A stretch of DNA of 64,000 nucleotides, taken from assembly GCA_026874595.1 (NCBI GenBank), contig CM049320.1, positions 33,326,214 through 33,390,213 of the forward strand, written 5' to 3'. The notes beneath the pieces were generated by a model. That model searched no databases. It saw only the letters and a list, made by a program, of their open reading frames with translations, and was not told the origin of the DNA. The translations under genes and the position numbers were made by a program. The stretch comes from Sipunculus nudus (lineage: Eukaryota > Annelida > Sipuncula > Golfingiida > Sipunculidae). Positions 35,059 through 63,226 of this stretch are shown in pieces (the stretch's first letter is position 1; every line of letters starts with the position of its first letter).

Positions 35059-35299
35059 ATGGCTGGCCGCTGGGTGTTGGGTGTAAGCCTGGTCATGGCG
35101 TGCGGCGCCGTGTGGTCAGTTCGGGGGATGGATACTCTGTTCAGCTTCGATGACCCCATCACTCAGCTGACCAGGAATAACTTCACTCGGATTATCCACG
35201 CGTCACCCACGGCCTGGGCGGTGGACTTCTACGCAAGCTGGTGTGGTCACTGTCAGAGGTTCGCCCCTGTGTGGGTCAAACTTGCCTATGACGTACACG
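35059..35299 (+). CDS. QSOX-CCN exon 1: signal peptide and thioredoxin active site
   Basis: Residues 1-80. The start ATG has a strong Kozak context (A at -3, G at +4). Hydrophobic residues 5-20 form a signal peptide; ASWCGHCQRFAP carries the CGHC redox pair at 62-65. The sequon NFT is at 41. It ends in phase 1 at donor GTAAGA. A (CT)n tract begins 15 bp into the intron. Confidence 0.92.
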
Positions 35300-35315
35300 G
35301 TAAGAATCTGAATTC

Positions 35316-35401
35316 TCTCACTCTCTCTCTCTCTCTCTCTCTCTCTCTCTCTCTCTCTCTCTCTCTCTCTCTCTCTCTCTCTCCCTTTCTCTCTCTCTCT
35401 G
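35316..35401. repeat. (CT)n tract next to the exon 1 donor
   Basis: About 85 bp of CT with few interruptions, starting 15 bp downstream of the splice donor. In the transcript it is a long CU tract, the kind of sequence polypyrimidine-tract-binding proteins recognise. Confidence 0.95.
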
Positions 35402-35626
35402 AAGTTGTCTGTCTTTCTGTCTGTCACAGATTCCTTCTGTTTCTCTGTCAGGTTGCCCGTCTCTGATTTTTATCTGCCTGTTTATAGCTGTCCGTAGGTT
35501 TACCTGTCCGCTGTCTGGCTTGCTCCTCTCTCTCTTTCTCTGTCTCCAAGACTCTGAGTCTTTCTGTGTCTAATTATTATCTGCCATATAGGCGTGGAAA
35601 TCCCGTGGCAGAGAGGCCACCCCCCT

Positions 35627-35662
35627 ACCCCCCCCCCCCCCAAAAAAAATGGGAGGGGGGGG
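35627..35662. repeat. Poly-C followed by poly-G
   Basis: Runs of about 14 C and about 10 G flank an A-rich spacer (CAAAAAAAATGGGA), a potential hairpin or G-quadruplex. Confidence 0.85.
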
Positions 35663-35872
35663 GGCTAAAGTATAGTCCACCCGCCGTCCACACACACATA
35701 TACATATTTGTGAGACATAAATTTTAATTATGTATAATTAACTGAAATATTTTTATTTTCTTTTAACATTTTATATGGGCCATTGGTCTAAAAATGTAAG
35801 GAAATGTGCCCATTTACAAATGAAATTTTGACATTTTCCACACCGTAGAAGAGGACTGACCCCATCCAACAC

Positions 35873-35957
35873 CCTCTCTCTCTCTCTCTCTCTCTCTCTC
35901 TCTCTGTATATATATATATATATATATATATATATATATATATATATATATATATAT
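35873..35957. repeat. (CT)n then (AT)n compound microsatellite
   Basis: About 16 CT units pass directly into about 25 AT units. Confidence 0.95.
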
Positions 35958-59998: not shown

Positions 59999-60370
59999 CG
60001 GATGAGTTTAAACCAGCGGAAGTACTCACCACAATACGCGAGTACATCCGGAACTTCTTTGGGTGCCGAGAATGTGCGGGCCACTTCACAAACATGAGTG
60101 CTCACGTGGAGGCGGAAGTACACAGAGGATGGGACGGTGTGATGTGGCTCTGGAAAGGACACAACCGTGTTAATGCGCGTCTCCATGGTGACACGACCGA
60201 AGACCCACAACACCCAAAAGTCCAGTTTCCGATTGATGAGGCGTGCCCGAGCTGCCGGAGAAGCTCTTTTAGCGACTTCTGGCGGGAAGCTTCCGTTAAG
60301 CAGTACCTGTTGAACTTTTACGGCCCGCAAAATATAATCCAGGATGCCTTGGCCTATACTCCACCCACAA
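59999..60370 (+). CDS. QSOX-CCN exon 10: ERV/ALR catalytic core
   Basis: Residues 408-531. The active-site pair is in FFGCRECAGHF (Cys430, Cys433). WLWKGHNRVNARLHGD is the FAD-ring and phosphate contact region typical of QSOX. ACPSCR (490-493) is the distal CxxC, and LLNFYG closes the domain. The sequon NMS is at 439. Phase 1 in, 1 out; donor GTAAGT. Reading on into the intron gives 14 more residues and a stop, so an unspliced form would encode a QSOX without the CCN tail. Confidence 0.96.
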
Positions 60371-61259
60371 GTAAGTTAGTGATAGGAAACGTAGTTTCTT
60401 GTAGTGAACATTGAAGCAGTTAAATAAGTAGACCCAGTTGTGGCTTGTGGTATACATAGTGCCATAGACCTCTGGTTTCATTGATCTAGCGGACGGGGCG
60501 CAGCGCACTTGTGAAGCCCCGTGGGTCGAAAGCCTGTCCTAGTTAACTGACGCGATTGTTTCAGGCTGCGGTGTGCATGTGTAACATCATCACTGCTAAC
60601 CTCCTAGTCCATCCAGCTGAAATGTTATACATGCCCACGATGAACATCTCGTGTTTATCCAGTGGCCATCTCACTTGGAAAAGCACCCAAATCACAGGGT
60701 CACACAGTAAAGGACGGTAGAGGTCTGTGGCTCTGTATATACCACAGAACCACAATTGGTCCTGTTAGATTACTACGTTAAGCCTACATGGTCTTTCTGC
60801 CTTTTAGCAATGCAGTGGTTGAGAAAATAGAGGGACATCCTCTCCACCAGGAACATGGCAGTTTTACCTTTCCCCAAACATAGTCTGTTAATCGTAATGA
60901 CAAATTTGCTTAAATGTCAACCCTGTTCAACTACCTAATATAAATAAATAAAAAAATCATGCAGAGCCAAACGGAAGAAATTTCACAAACAACACGTGTT
61001 GATACCCCTAAATAGCGTTATTTTGAATATATGGTTACCAGCGTTACGGGAAGTAATTAACTGCATCTTACGTCTCCGGGGGATGTGATTTTGATACATG
61101 AGCATTTAACAGTTACTGTTGCTATGGTTTTAAATATATTTTTTAACAAAATTTATTGTTCGGGCCTCCTACGAGCAACTTCACGATTCAGTCATTATTC
61201 AAGTTATTTTACAGTAAAGGCAACTTAATTTTTAAGTGACTTAATTGTCATAATTTCAG
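60371..61259 (+). other. QSOX-CCN intron 10
   Basis: Contains overlapping AATAAA hexamers at 60943-60952, possible intronic polyadenylation signals. No IGFBP- or VWC-like exon (the other CCN modules) was found here. Confidence 0.7.
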
Positions 61260-61298
61260 GTGCACCGACTACCCCGTCCACGACATCTCCAGCACCAA
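61260..61298 (+). CDS. QSOX-CCN exon 11: 39-nt Thr/Pro microexon
   Basis: Residues 532-544, SAPTTPSTTSPAP, a mucin-like linker with many possible O-glycosylation sites. Good acceptor (ATAATTTCAG) and donor (GTAAGT). Symmetric phase 1-1: it can be skipped or included without shifting the frame. It is short and low-complexity, so it is the least certain exon in the model. Confidence 0.72.
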
Positions 61299-61775
61299 GT
61301 AAGTTATGTTATATAGAGTAGAACTGAATAACGGACACTGACGGGACCGGACATTTTGCCCGCAATGGAAAGGTGCCCTTAGTAGGGACTTTATAGGTTT
61401 CGGGGCCTACTTTCATGGGACTGTCAGTAAGTGGCCGTAAATAGAAGGTGCCCTTAGTATGGAGGTGCCCGCAAAGAGAAGTTCCACTGTACTTGAATTT
61501 AGTATACTATGATCAGTGTGTATACAGAAGTTTATAGGTCAAGTACATTCAAATGCAATTATAGGAGTGTGGTATGACAAAGTATAACGGAGACGCTAAG
61601 GAAAACCATAAATGTCATCATTTCAACCTATTTACGAAACCATCAGTTTCCTTAAAATGATATAATGTAATAAAAACAAATATGTCATATCTGTTGCCAT
61701 AAATATGAATTACCAAACTGTTCTGTGCCATTTATTATTGCTGTGTTTGAATCAAATCGATTTTCCCCTATCCAG
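61299..61775 (+). other. QSOX-CCN intron 11
   Basis: Contains a 174-bp MITE; otherwise nothing recognised. Confidence 0.75.
61316..61489. mobile_element. 174-bp pogo/mariner-like MITE
   Basis: The left end is GAGTAGAACTGAATAACGG (CAGT-type with one change) and the right end is the complement of CAGTGGAACTTCTC, flanked by TA. The interior repeats GGTGCCCTTAGTA. Confidence 0.7.
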
Positions 61776-61957
61776 CGGAAGTCAGAACGACGCCTGCCCA
61801 GCCAGAATGCGTGCGCATCACAACGCCATGGTCTTCCTGTTCCCGCTCGTGTGGGACAGGTCTCTCATCCAGAATGTCTAACGATAACCCACGATGCAAA
61901 ACCAAGCGGGAATATCGTATCTGTACCATGAGACCATGCACCTACGAAGCGGAAATG
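61776..61957 (+). CDS. QSOX-CCN exon 12: CCN-type thrombospondin type 1 repeat
   Basis: Residues 545-605. Six cysteines (556, 566, 570, 585, 594, 599) with the spacing of the CCN subgroup of TSP1 repeats, including TPWSSCSRSCGTG, a following SNDNPRC, and the closing RICTMRPC. WSSC (Trp563) is a C-mannosylation motif, and CSRSCG fits the CxxS/TCG site for protein O-fucosyltransferase 2. Clean acceptor (CCCCTATCCAG) and donor (GTAAGA); phase 1 in, 0 out. CCN genes encode this module in a single exon, as here. It joins in frame to exon 10 with or without exon 11. Confidence 0.9.
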
Positions 61958-62968
61958 GTAAGACAGCAAAGAGTTGATTTCATATATATTCTCGAGGTTG
62001 ATACTTAGCAATTTTATCTGGTCCAGTGTATTGTGAAGGTTCATTTTTCGCAAAGTGACCATACAATAACCTACCCAGAGTATATATATCCATTATTATA
62101 TGTGTATTGAATAATAAGTGCAATATTTTAACGATTGGATGGGTACCATAGGTACCAAAGAATAAATGGTTATCTTTGGGAGACATTTTGCAAGATATGA
62201 TTGATCAACCTTTCATGTACGAGTAACATAGAAGATTTATTAACATTTATAATTTTCTATGACGATGAGACCTCTTATTCCCGAAAGTTTTATTTTCACC
62301 ATAATATCCCTTTTGCGAATATACCAAAATTGAAGCTCTGGCGAAGAAAAGAGCAGCCACAGTGCGTTCCGGTGTGTGTGTGTGGGGGGGGGGGTTTAAG
62401 GGTTTGGGGTATGAATTTGTTTAAATAATGTAGTTTAACAAAGACATCAAACTTTTAATATAATTCAGGTGCAGTTTAAAACAAACTTAAAGCAAAAGAT
62501 TTTGCTTTTTGAATTTGCCCGGTGAAAATCAATTGAGAACACATCTTGAGTAGCTTAATATTGTACTCGCATATATACTTCGAAATACGTCGGATCCGGA
62601 ATGCTTCAAATTAACGTATCCTTCATGCATGTTATAATAATCGTTTTCTCTGACACAGTACACCCAGTTTTGACGTCACATCAGATTCATTTGTTTGAAC
62701 TAAAAATCACCCAGCACAAACCACAACAGTGAGAGGGACTTCTCAGTTTTGGGAAATAAGCCTTGTATCAGCGTGTGTTTCCTTATGCTACTATTTTCAG
62801 TCCCTTTGTAGTGTATCTTTACCAGCGTGCCTTCTGTTTTGGCGTCCTCCAGCGTGAAAGGAATTGGCTGATTTAATCCGGAAGTGGACTACTTAACAAA
62901 CTCTGGTATCTTTATATATGGATTTTATGAACCCTTTCACCTAAAAATAACTTTGATTTCTTATTCAG
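61958..62968 (+). other. QSOX-CCN intron 12
   Basis: Contains a GT-rich then poly-G run at about 62371-62394. Nothing else recognised. Confidence 0.8.
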
Positions 62969-63226
62969 GAGAGCTGCAACAAGACGCTGTCAGATTTCTA
63001 CCCGAAACGCATCCAATATGGCTACTGTCGCACCATGGACCAGTACAGACTGAAATACTGCGGGGCCTGCCCCGGGAAATGCTGTTACCCTGTCAAGAGT
63101 CATACCGTCATGGCTCGGTTTTACTGCGGGTGGATGAGGGCTGCGATTGGCCGAATCTGGATTATCGATGCTTGCGCATGCGCACCAACCTGCCCGGATG
63201 ACTACACAGACACGGAGGCGCCGTAA
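62969..63226 (+). CDS. QSOX-CCN exon 13: C-terminal cystine knot (CTCK) and stop
   Basis: Residues 606-690. Ten cysteines (608, 625, 636, 639, 643, 644, 658, 674, 676, 680), the number and order of CCN CT domains: the adjacent pair in GKCCYP, YCGAC before it, and ACACAPTCP at the end. QYRLKYCG matches the conserved block before the knot. The sequon NKT is at 609. Ends with a short acidic tail and TAA. In CCN proteins this module mediates dimerisation and binding to integrins, heparan sulfate and matrix (family knowledge). Confidence 0.9.
   Translation, partial: ESCNKTLSDFYPKRIQYGYCRTMDQYRLKYCGACPGKCCYPVKSHTVMARFYCGWMRAAIGRIWIIDACACAPTCPDDYTDTEAP

Follow-up and report, generated by a model that had tools for sequence, protein, structure and literature searches.

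A gene of Sipunculus nudus joins a quiescin sulfhydryl oxidase to a CCN-type TSP1 and cystine-knot tail

The 64,000-nucleotide stretch of DNA analysed here (the window) comes from the sipunculan Sipunculus nudus (GenBank assembly GCA_026874595.1, contig CM049320.1, positions 33,326,214 to 33,390,213 of the forward strand), and the gene under study occupies window positions 35059 to 63226 of the plus strand. This single gene appears to encode a quiescin sulfhydryl oxidase (QSOX) core, a Thr/Pro/Ser linker stalk, and the C-terminal half of a CCN-type matricellular protein, namely a TSP1 repeat and a CTCK cystine knot. A prior reading made from the letters alone (the sequence-only reading) had described thirteen exons with consensus splice sites and unbroken phase. 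This model was reproduced when the gene was rebuilt independently from the bases: the 13 exons yield 690 codons in an unbroken frame that ends with a TAA stop codon at 63224-63226, all 12 introns have GT...AG boundaries, and the exon phases match exactly. The coordinates given for the last junctions (60370/61260, 61298/61776 and 61957/62969) were also found to be right. The first intron spans 13 kb and in parts consists of long CT/GA and TA microsatellites (e.g., ~35315-35400 and ~36200-36500).

By every feature examined, the encoded protein is a QSOX, complete and apparently active, as the sequence-only reading had proposed. In Pfam searches of the 690-residue protein, FAD_SOX (PF18371, 1.8e-24), Thioredoxin (5e-19), and Evr1_Alr (1e-17) all scored above their curated cut-offs, and QSOX_Trx1 matched residues 164-233 (2.9e-5, 24.8 bits against a cut-off of 23), which marks a metazoan-type second thioredoxin domain (Trx2). 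The second pseudo-Erv model, PF22220, reached 16.1 bits on the whole protein, under its cut-off of 27. A phmmer alignment with the mammalian QSOX1 structures (PDB sequences) extends over residues 24-524 with an E value of ~1e-99. Splicing together with these matches assigns the domains to exons. Exon 1 (35059..35299) carries the start codon, an N-terminus that by eye resembles a signal peptide, and the first thioredoxin domain (Trx1) with its CGHC motif at residues 62-65. Trx1 continues through exon 2 (48386..48486), which contributes Cys93 and Cys102, into exon 3 (49111..49256), where the alignment places its end and the start of the Trx2 region. The latter occupies exons 4 (51357..51447) and 5 (52167..52303) and ends in exon 6 (53835..53948), which continues into a Thr/Pro-rich inter-domain linker. 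The pseudo-Erv domain matched by FAD_SOX is encoded by exons 7 (54509..54644) and 8 (55451..55567). The Erv domain starts in exon 9 (56426..56564), which bears the WTGCQGSxPxxRGYPCSLW segment that binds flavin adenine dinucleotide (FAD), whereas its catalytic CREC (residues 430-433), the HNRVN segment, and the distal CPSC (490-493) all lie in exon 10 (59999..60370). All three redox motifs are at the positions originally claimed. Cysteines 93/102 and 376/388 align with cysteines of QSOX1, as does the distal CPSC, the third and carboxy-terminal CXXC. In PMC3616962, the hallmarks of a QSOX are given as Trx and Erv domains each with a redox CXXC, a pseudo-Erv domain upstream of Erv, and a third CXXC. 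Pfam matches and motif positions locate each of these in the window protein.

Downstream of the QSOX core, exon 11 (61260..61298) consists of 39 nucleotides that, by splicing, encode the Thr/Pro/Ser linker. Exon 12 (61776..61957) encodes a CCN-type TSP1 repeat at residues 556-599 with six cysteines and an O-fucose consensus at Cys566. This repeat matches TSP1_CCN (PF19035) at 5.3e-15, with 55.9 bits against a cut-off of 27, and is itself matched by the TSP1 of CCN3 in the PDB (3e-12). Exon 13 (62969..63226) ends with the stop codon, and a polyadenylation-like AATAAA motif follows at 63272..63277. The last exon encodes a ten-cysteine CTCK (cysteines within residues 608-680), for which the evidence is less direct than for the other domains. 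All ten cysteines are invariant in an alignment of seven rows (the window protein and six relatives with complete tails), and the closest matches to the fold predicted for exon 13 are sclerostin, the CTCK of VWF, gremlin, and norrin. With the human CCN2 sequence assumed here, its TSP1-CT part is 36% identical to the window tail over 136 columns, and the cysteine spacing of the tail equals that of CCN2 save for the inter-domain gap and one residue. The order described in the sequence-only reading, a six-cysteine CCN-type TSP1 followed by a ten-cysteine CTCK, is supported.

Several results weigh against a CCN-derived cystine knot that serves as a matrix address. The Pfam Cys_knot model scored 22.0 bits on exon 13 alone, below its cut-off of 24, and it was listed neither for the 140-residue piece comprising TSP1 and CTCK, nor for the whole protein, nor, at E<=0.05, for a single one of the six relatives whose tails are complete. 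In addition, two motifs are tied to heparan or integrin binding in CCN proteins in PMC10326224, KKGKK before the first CTCK cysteine (in CCN1-3) and GVCTDGR. Neither is kept in the window protein, which has YEAEMES at the position of the former and GACPGK at that of the latter. Because these motifs are missing, heparan or integrin binding by analogy with CCN proteins was not adopted. Judged by its domains, the window protein is not itself a CCN protein. Like CCN1-6 it has a CCN-type TSP1 followed by a CTCK, but an enzyme stands where CCN proteins have IGFBP and VWC, and Pfam matched neither module to the whole 690-residue chain at E<=1.

The same fusion is present in other proteins. A sequence search against 5.8 billion proteins returned 105 matches among 5278 candidates, and seven of the 105 combine TSP1_CCN with FAD_SOX and Evr1_Alr; a profile search gave 322 matches, and the same seven are among the 120 listed. 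One of them, P0001, is from the annelid Lamellibrachia satsuma, a deep-sea tubeworm, and its database name is only Sulfhydryl oxidase 1. The remaining six (P0002-P0006 and P0042) are open reading frames of 457-756 residues, and the longest contigs of their source records span 2280-2831 bases, which, for an animal with many introns, suggests that these records derive from spliced RNA. The search for this architecture elsewhere, which had been put forward as a check, thus returned seven TSP1_CCN relatives, six of them with a complete tail that includes all ten CTCK cysteines; P0004 breaks off ahead of the CTCK, and in P0042 the N-terminal half is missing. Where complete, the relatives share the architecture of the window protein, to which they are 35-44% identical in one alignment. 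They differ in that several have longer linkers, and the CTCK loops are longer in P0002, P0003, P0005, and P0042. All eight aligned fused proteins keep the Erv CXXC and the distal CXXC without change, whereas at the Trx motif the window protein has CGHC, and P0002 and P0004 have CGYC. Eighteen cysteines follow the Erv anchor in seven of the eight, the eighth being the truncated P0004. The retention of the tail in such divergent relatives, with no cysteine lost from any complete tail, suggests that selection has tied the enzyme to it. As a separate observation, the start of the pseudo-Erv domain occurs in P0001 (~residues 280-390) as ~5 near-identical copies, the product of either a tandem duplication of exons or a fault in assembly or annotation.

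These relatives bear on the proposal that two adjoining genes are present, a QSOX gene ending near exon 10 and a CCN-like gene owning exons 12 and 13, with the join an error of modelling or assembly. Exons 12 and 13 do resemble the closing pair of exons in CCN genes, and they had been joined by eye from genomic sequence alone. The proposal is nonetheless highly improbable given that seven other proteins have TSP1_CCN after QSOX, six with a full CTCK, and that for six of these seven the source contigs are no longer than 2831 bases. At the locus itself, the frame read back from exon 12 stays open for just 9 residues and contains no ATG, such that a downstream gene of its own would require a further exon, so far unseen, ahead of it. 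An assembly break between 60.4 and 61.8 kb had been named as one finding that would undo the model; the whole window contains no N, and hence no marked gap falls there. With the Lamellibrachia protein as the query, tblastn recovered window exons 12 and 13 at 2e-10 each. A chance or mis-joined model was rejected on these grounds together with the in-phase splicing, and it is very unlikely that the join of QSOX and CCN tail is an artefact. The occurrence of the same joined protein in a deep-sea tubeworm and in other sequences instead looks like a real family rather than an annotation error. No description of a QSOX with TSP1, CCN, or CTCK modules was found among the papers listed from open-licence PubMed Central (titles and starts of abstracts). 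The suggestion that no such family had been described stands in that respect, although this gene is not alone in having the architecture, which is present, unremarked, in public databases. QSOX-TSP1-CTCK proteins look like a conserved and, as far as searched, undescribed family.

To place this family, two trees were inferred, the first from 50 rows (the window protein and 49 hand-chosen members of the 191 database proteins) and the second from 32 rows (the window protein and 31 others, with P0124 and 17 other rows of the first tree omitted), which were trimmed after the Erv domain where a pattern located it. In the first tree, the eight fused proteins fall together on one side of a branch, with the molluscs on the other (99/96). 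They lie within an 11-row clade (96/84) that also contains Capitella teleta, P0106, and P0117. The row of the annelid C. teleta is an incomplete model that does not reach the tail, and P0106 and P0117 are without TSP1. The corresponding clade in the second tree has 12 rows (100/98), an unresolved base, and an additional tail-less member, P0019. The tail-less rows within the clade indicate that the tail may have been lost or spliced out. Both database members with organism names (L. satsuma and C. teleta) are annelids, and on this placement an annelid or a near relative is the likeliest source of the gene. A use in shell, periostracum, or byssus, raised as speculation in the sequence-only reading, would imply a molluscan setting, and this was not borne out. 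TSP1_CCN is absent from all eight named molluscan QSOXs among the profile matches listed (120 of 322). Seven of these eight (from a chiton, gastropods, and cephalopods) were included in the trees, whose rows contain neither bivalves nor brachiopods, and all seven fall outside the fused clade. A clade of the window protein with the seven molluscs, a grouping chosen after the first tree and without bivalves, was rejected by the approximately unbiased test (p 3.7e-5).

Three further sequences deserve description. In the window, retention of intron 10 would introduce a stop 14 residues past exon 10 (60371-60414) and yield a QSOX without the tail; P0106 ends at a comparable position. P0117 (415 aa), close kin of the fused P0004, ends in a hydrophobic stretch and CC with no TSP1-CTCK, which may reflect alternative splicing, intron read-through, or a real second tail. 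Finally, P0124 (1012 aa) branches just outside the fused group in the first tree, on a long branch. It resembles the window protein as a QSOX core with an added extracellular domain, but its long C-terminal stretch holds an fn3 domain (25.0 bits, at the cut-off) and an unassigned part rather than TSP1-CTCK, and would represent a second type of extracellular module on a QSOX.

The position of the tail relative to the usual membrane anchor was assessed in 192 rows (the 191 database proteins and the window protein), of which 157 bore the Erv anchor pattern and 35 were dropped for lacking it. A membrane-like stretch, defined by a simple hydropathy window with a mean over 1.6, is seen in none of the eight fused tails (seven complete, one cut) versus 119 of the 149 other anchored QSOX rows. 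The remaining 30 of the 149 also have no such stretch, and the rows, many of them from vertebrates, are strongly non-independent. Among the molluscan QSOXs in the trees, six of seven have a membrane-like stretch at their end; the Argonauta model is short. By this comparison, the CCN-derived tail sits where the membrane span usually sits. Like animal QSOX1 and QSOX2, the window protein has Trx1 (CGHC), Trx2, pseudo-Erv, Erv (CXXC), and the distal CXXC, but it carries TSP1 and CTCK where most of the other anchored rows have a membrane-like tail. The protein is probably a secreted QSOX in which the CCN-derived tail replaces the membrane anchor and retains the enzyme at the matrix or cell surface.

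Two other roles for the tail were weighed. It is unlikely, first, that the tail is chiefly an aid to secretion, stability, or assembly (through CTCK dimers, for example), with no specific matrix address. Cystine-knot domains are the means by which many secreted proteins dimerise, and the window protein lacks the CCN matrix motifs. PMC10326224 also proposes that an extra cysteine aids dimers of CCN-type knots, and this cysteine has a counterpart in the CC pair of the window protein. However, the CTCK cysteines are even in number, such that all ten could pair inside the domain, and a TSP1 repeat is unnecessary for a dimer. Any dimerisation of the tail, which the sequence-only reading thought probable, would be one option among others. 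Second, the tail could be a signalling ligand that acts on receptors, as the released C-terminal half of CCN2 does, with the QSOX mainly folding and dimerising its own cystine-knot tail. According to PMC10326224, CCN1, CCN2, CCN3, and CCN5 all have bioactive C-terminal fragments, that of CCN2 being more potent as a dimer. Sclerostin and norrin, both secreted signalling proteins, are among the nearest folds to the predicted structure. We regard this role as quite unlikely: the Erv and distal CXXC motifs are invariant in all eight fused proteins, beyond what self-folding would appear to need. CCN proteins are not known to need a QSOX-like partner for folding.

For the preferred reading, a secreted QSOX held in place by its tail, the chemistry would be that of other QSOXs. 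In established QSOX biochemistry, a relay runs from thiols through Trx, Erv, and FAD to oxygen, and the residues it needs are present in the window protein. Here, the relay would pass from substrate thiols to the CGHC of Trx1, the CREC of Erv, FAD, and oxygen, with disulfides and hydrogen peroxide as the products. The most likely role of the tail would be to keep the oxidase on cell surfaces or in the extracellular matrix, where disulfides could be formed within or between matrix proteins. How a secreted QSOX is kept at its site of action is a broader question, and vertebrate QSOX has no known matrix-binding module. A natural fusion of this kind would provide a direct test of matrix-targeted disulfide formation, as well as a ready-made means of targeting a disulfide catalyst. 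An action of QSOX1 in the matrix is described in PMC4621900, in which it is needed for the incorporation of laminin alpha-4. More tentatively, this annelid-lineage QSOX family may have changed from a disulfide catalyst of the secretory pathway into a matrix-addressed cross-linker, concentrated by its tail at particular sites in cuticle, tube, or basement membrane and producing inter-protein disulfides and local peroxide; if true, it would be a disulfide counterpart of the lysyl oxidases.

Two further features were seen elsewhere in the window, both on the minus strand. A frame at 1370-1588 resembles part of a C-type lectin domain by eye and has no Pfam match at E<=0.1. A 133-residue open frame at 30219-30617 contains a full THAP domain (PF05485, 71.5 bits) and may be part of a gene or a transposon relic.

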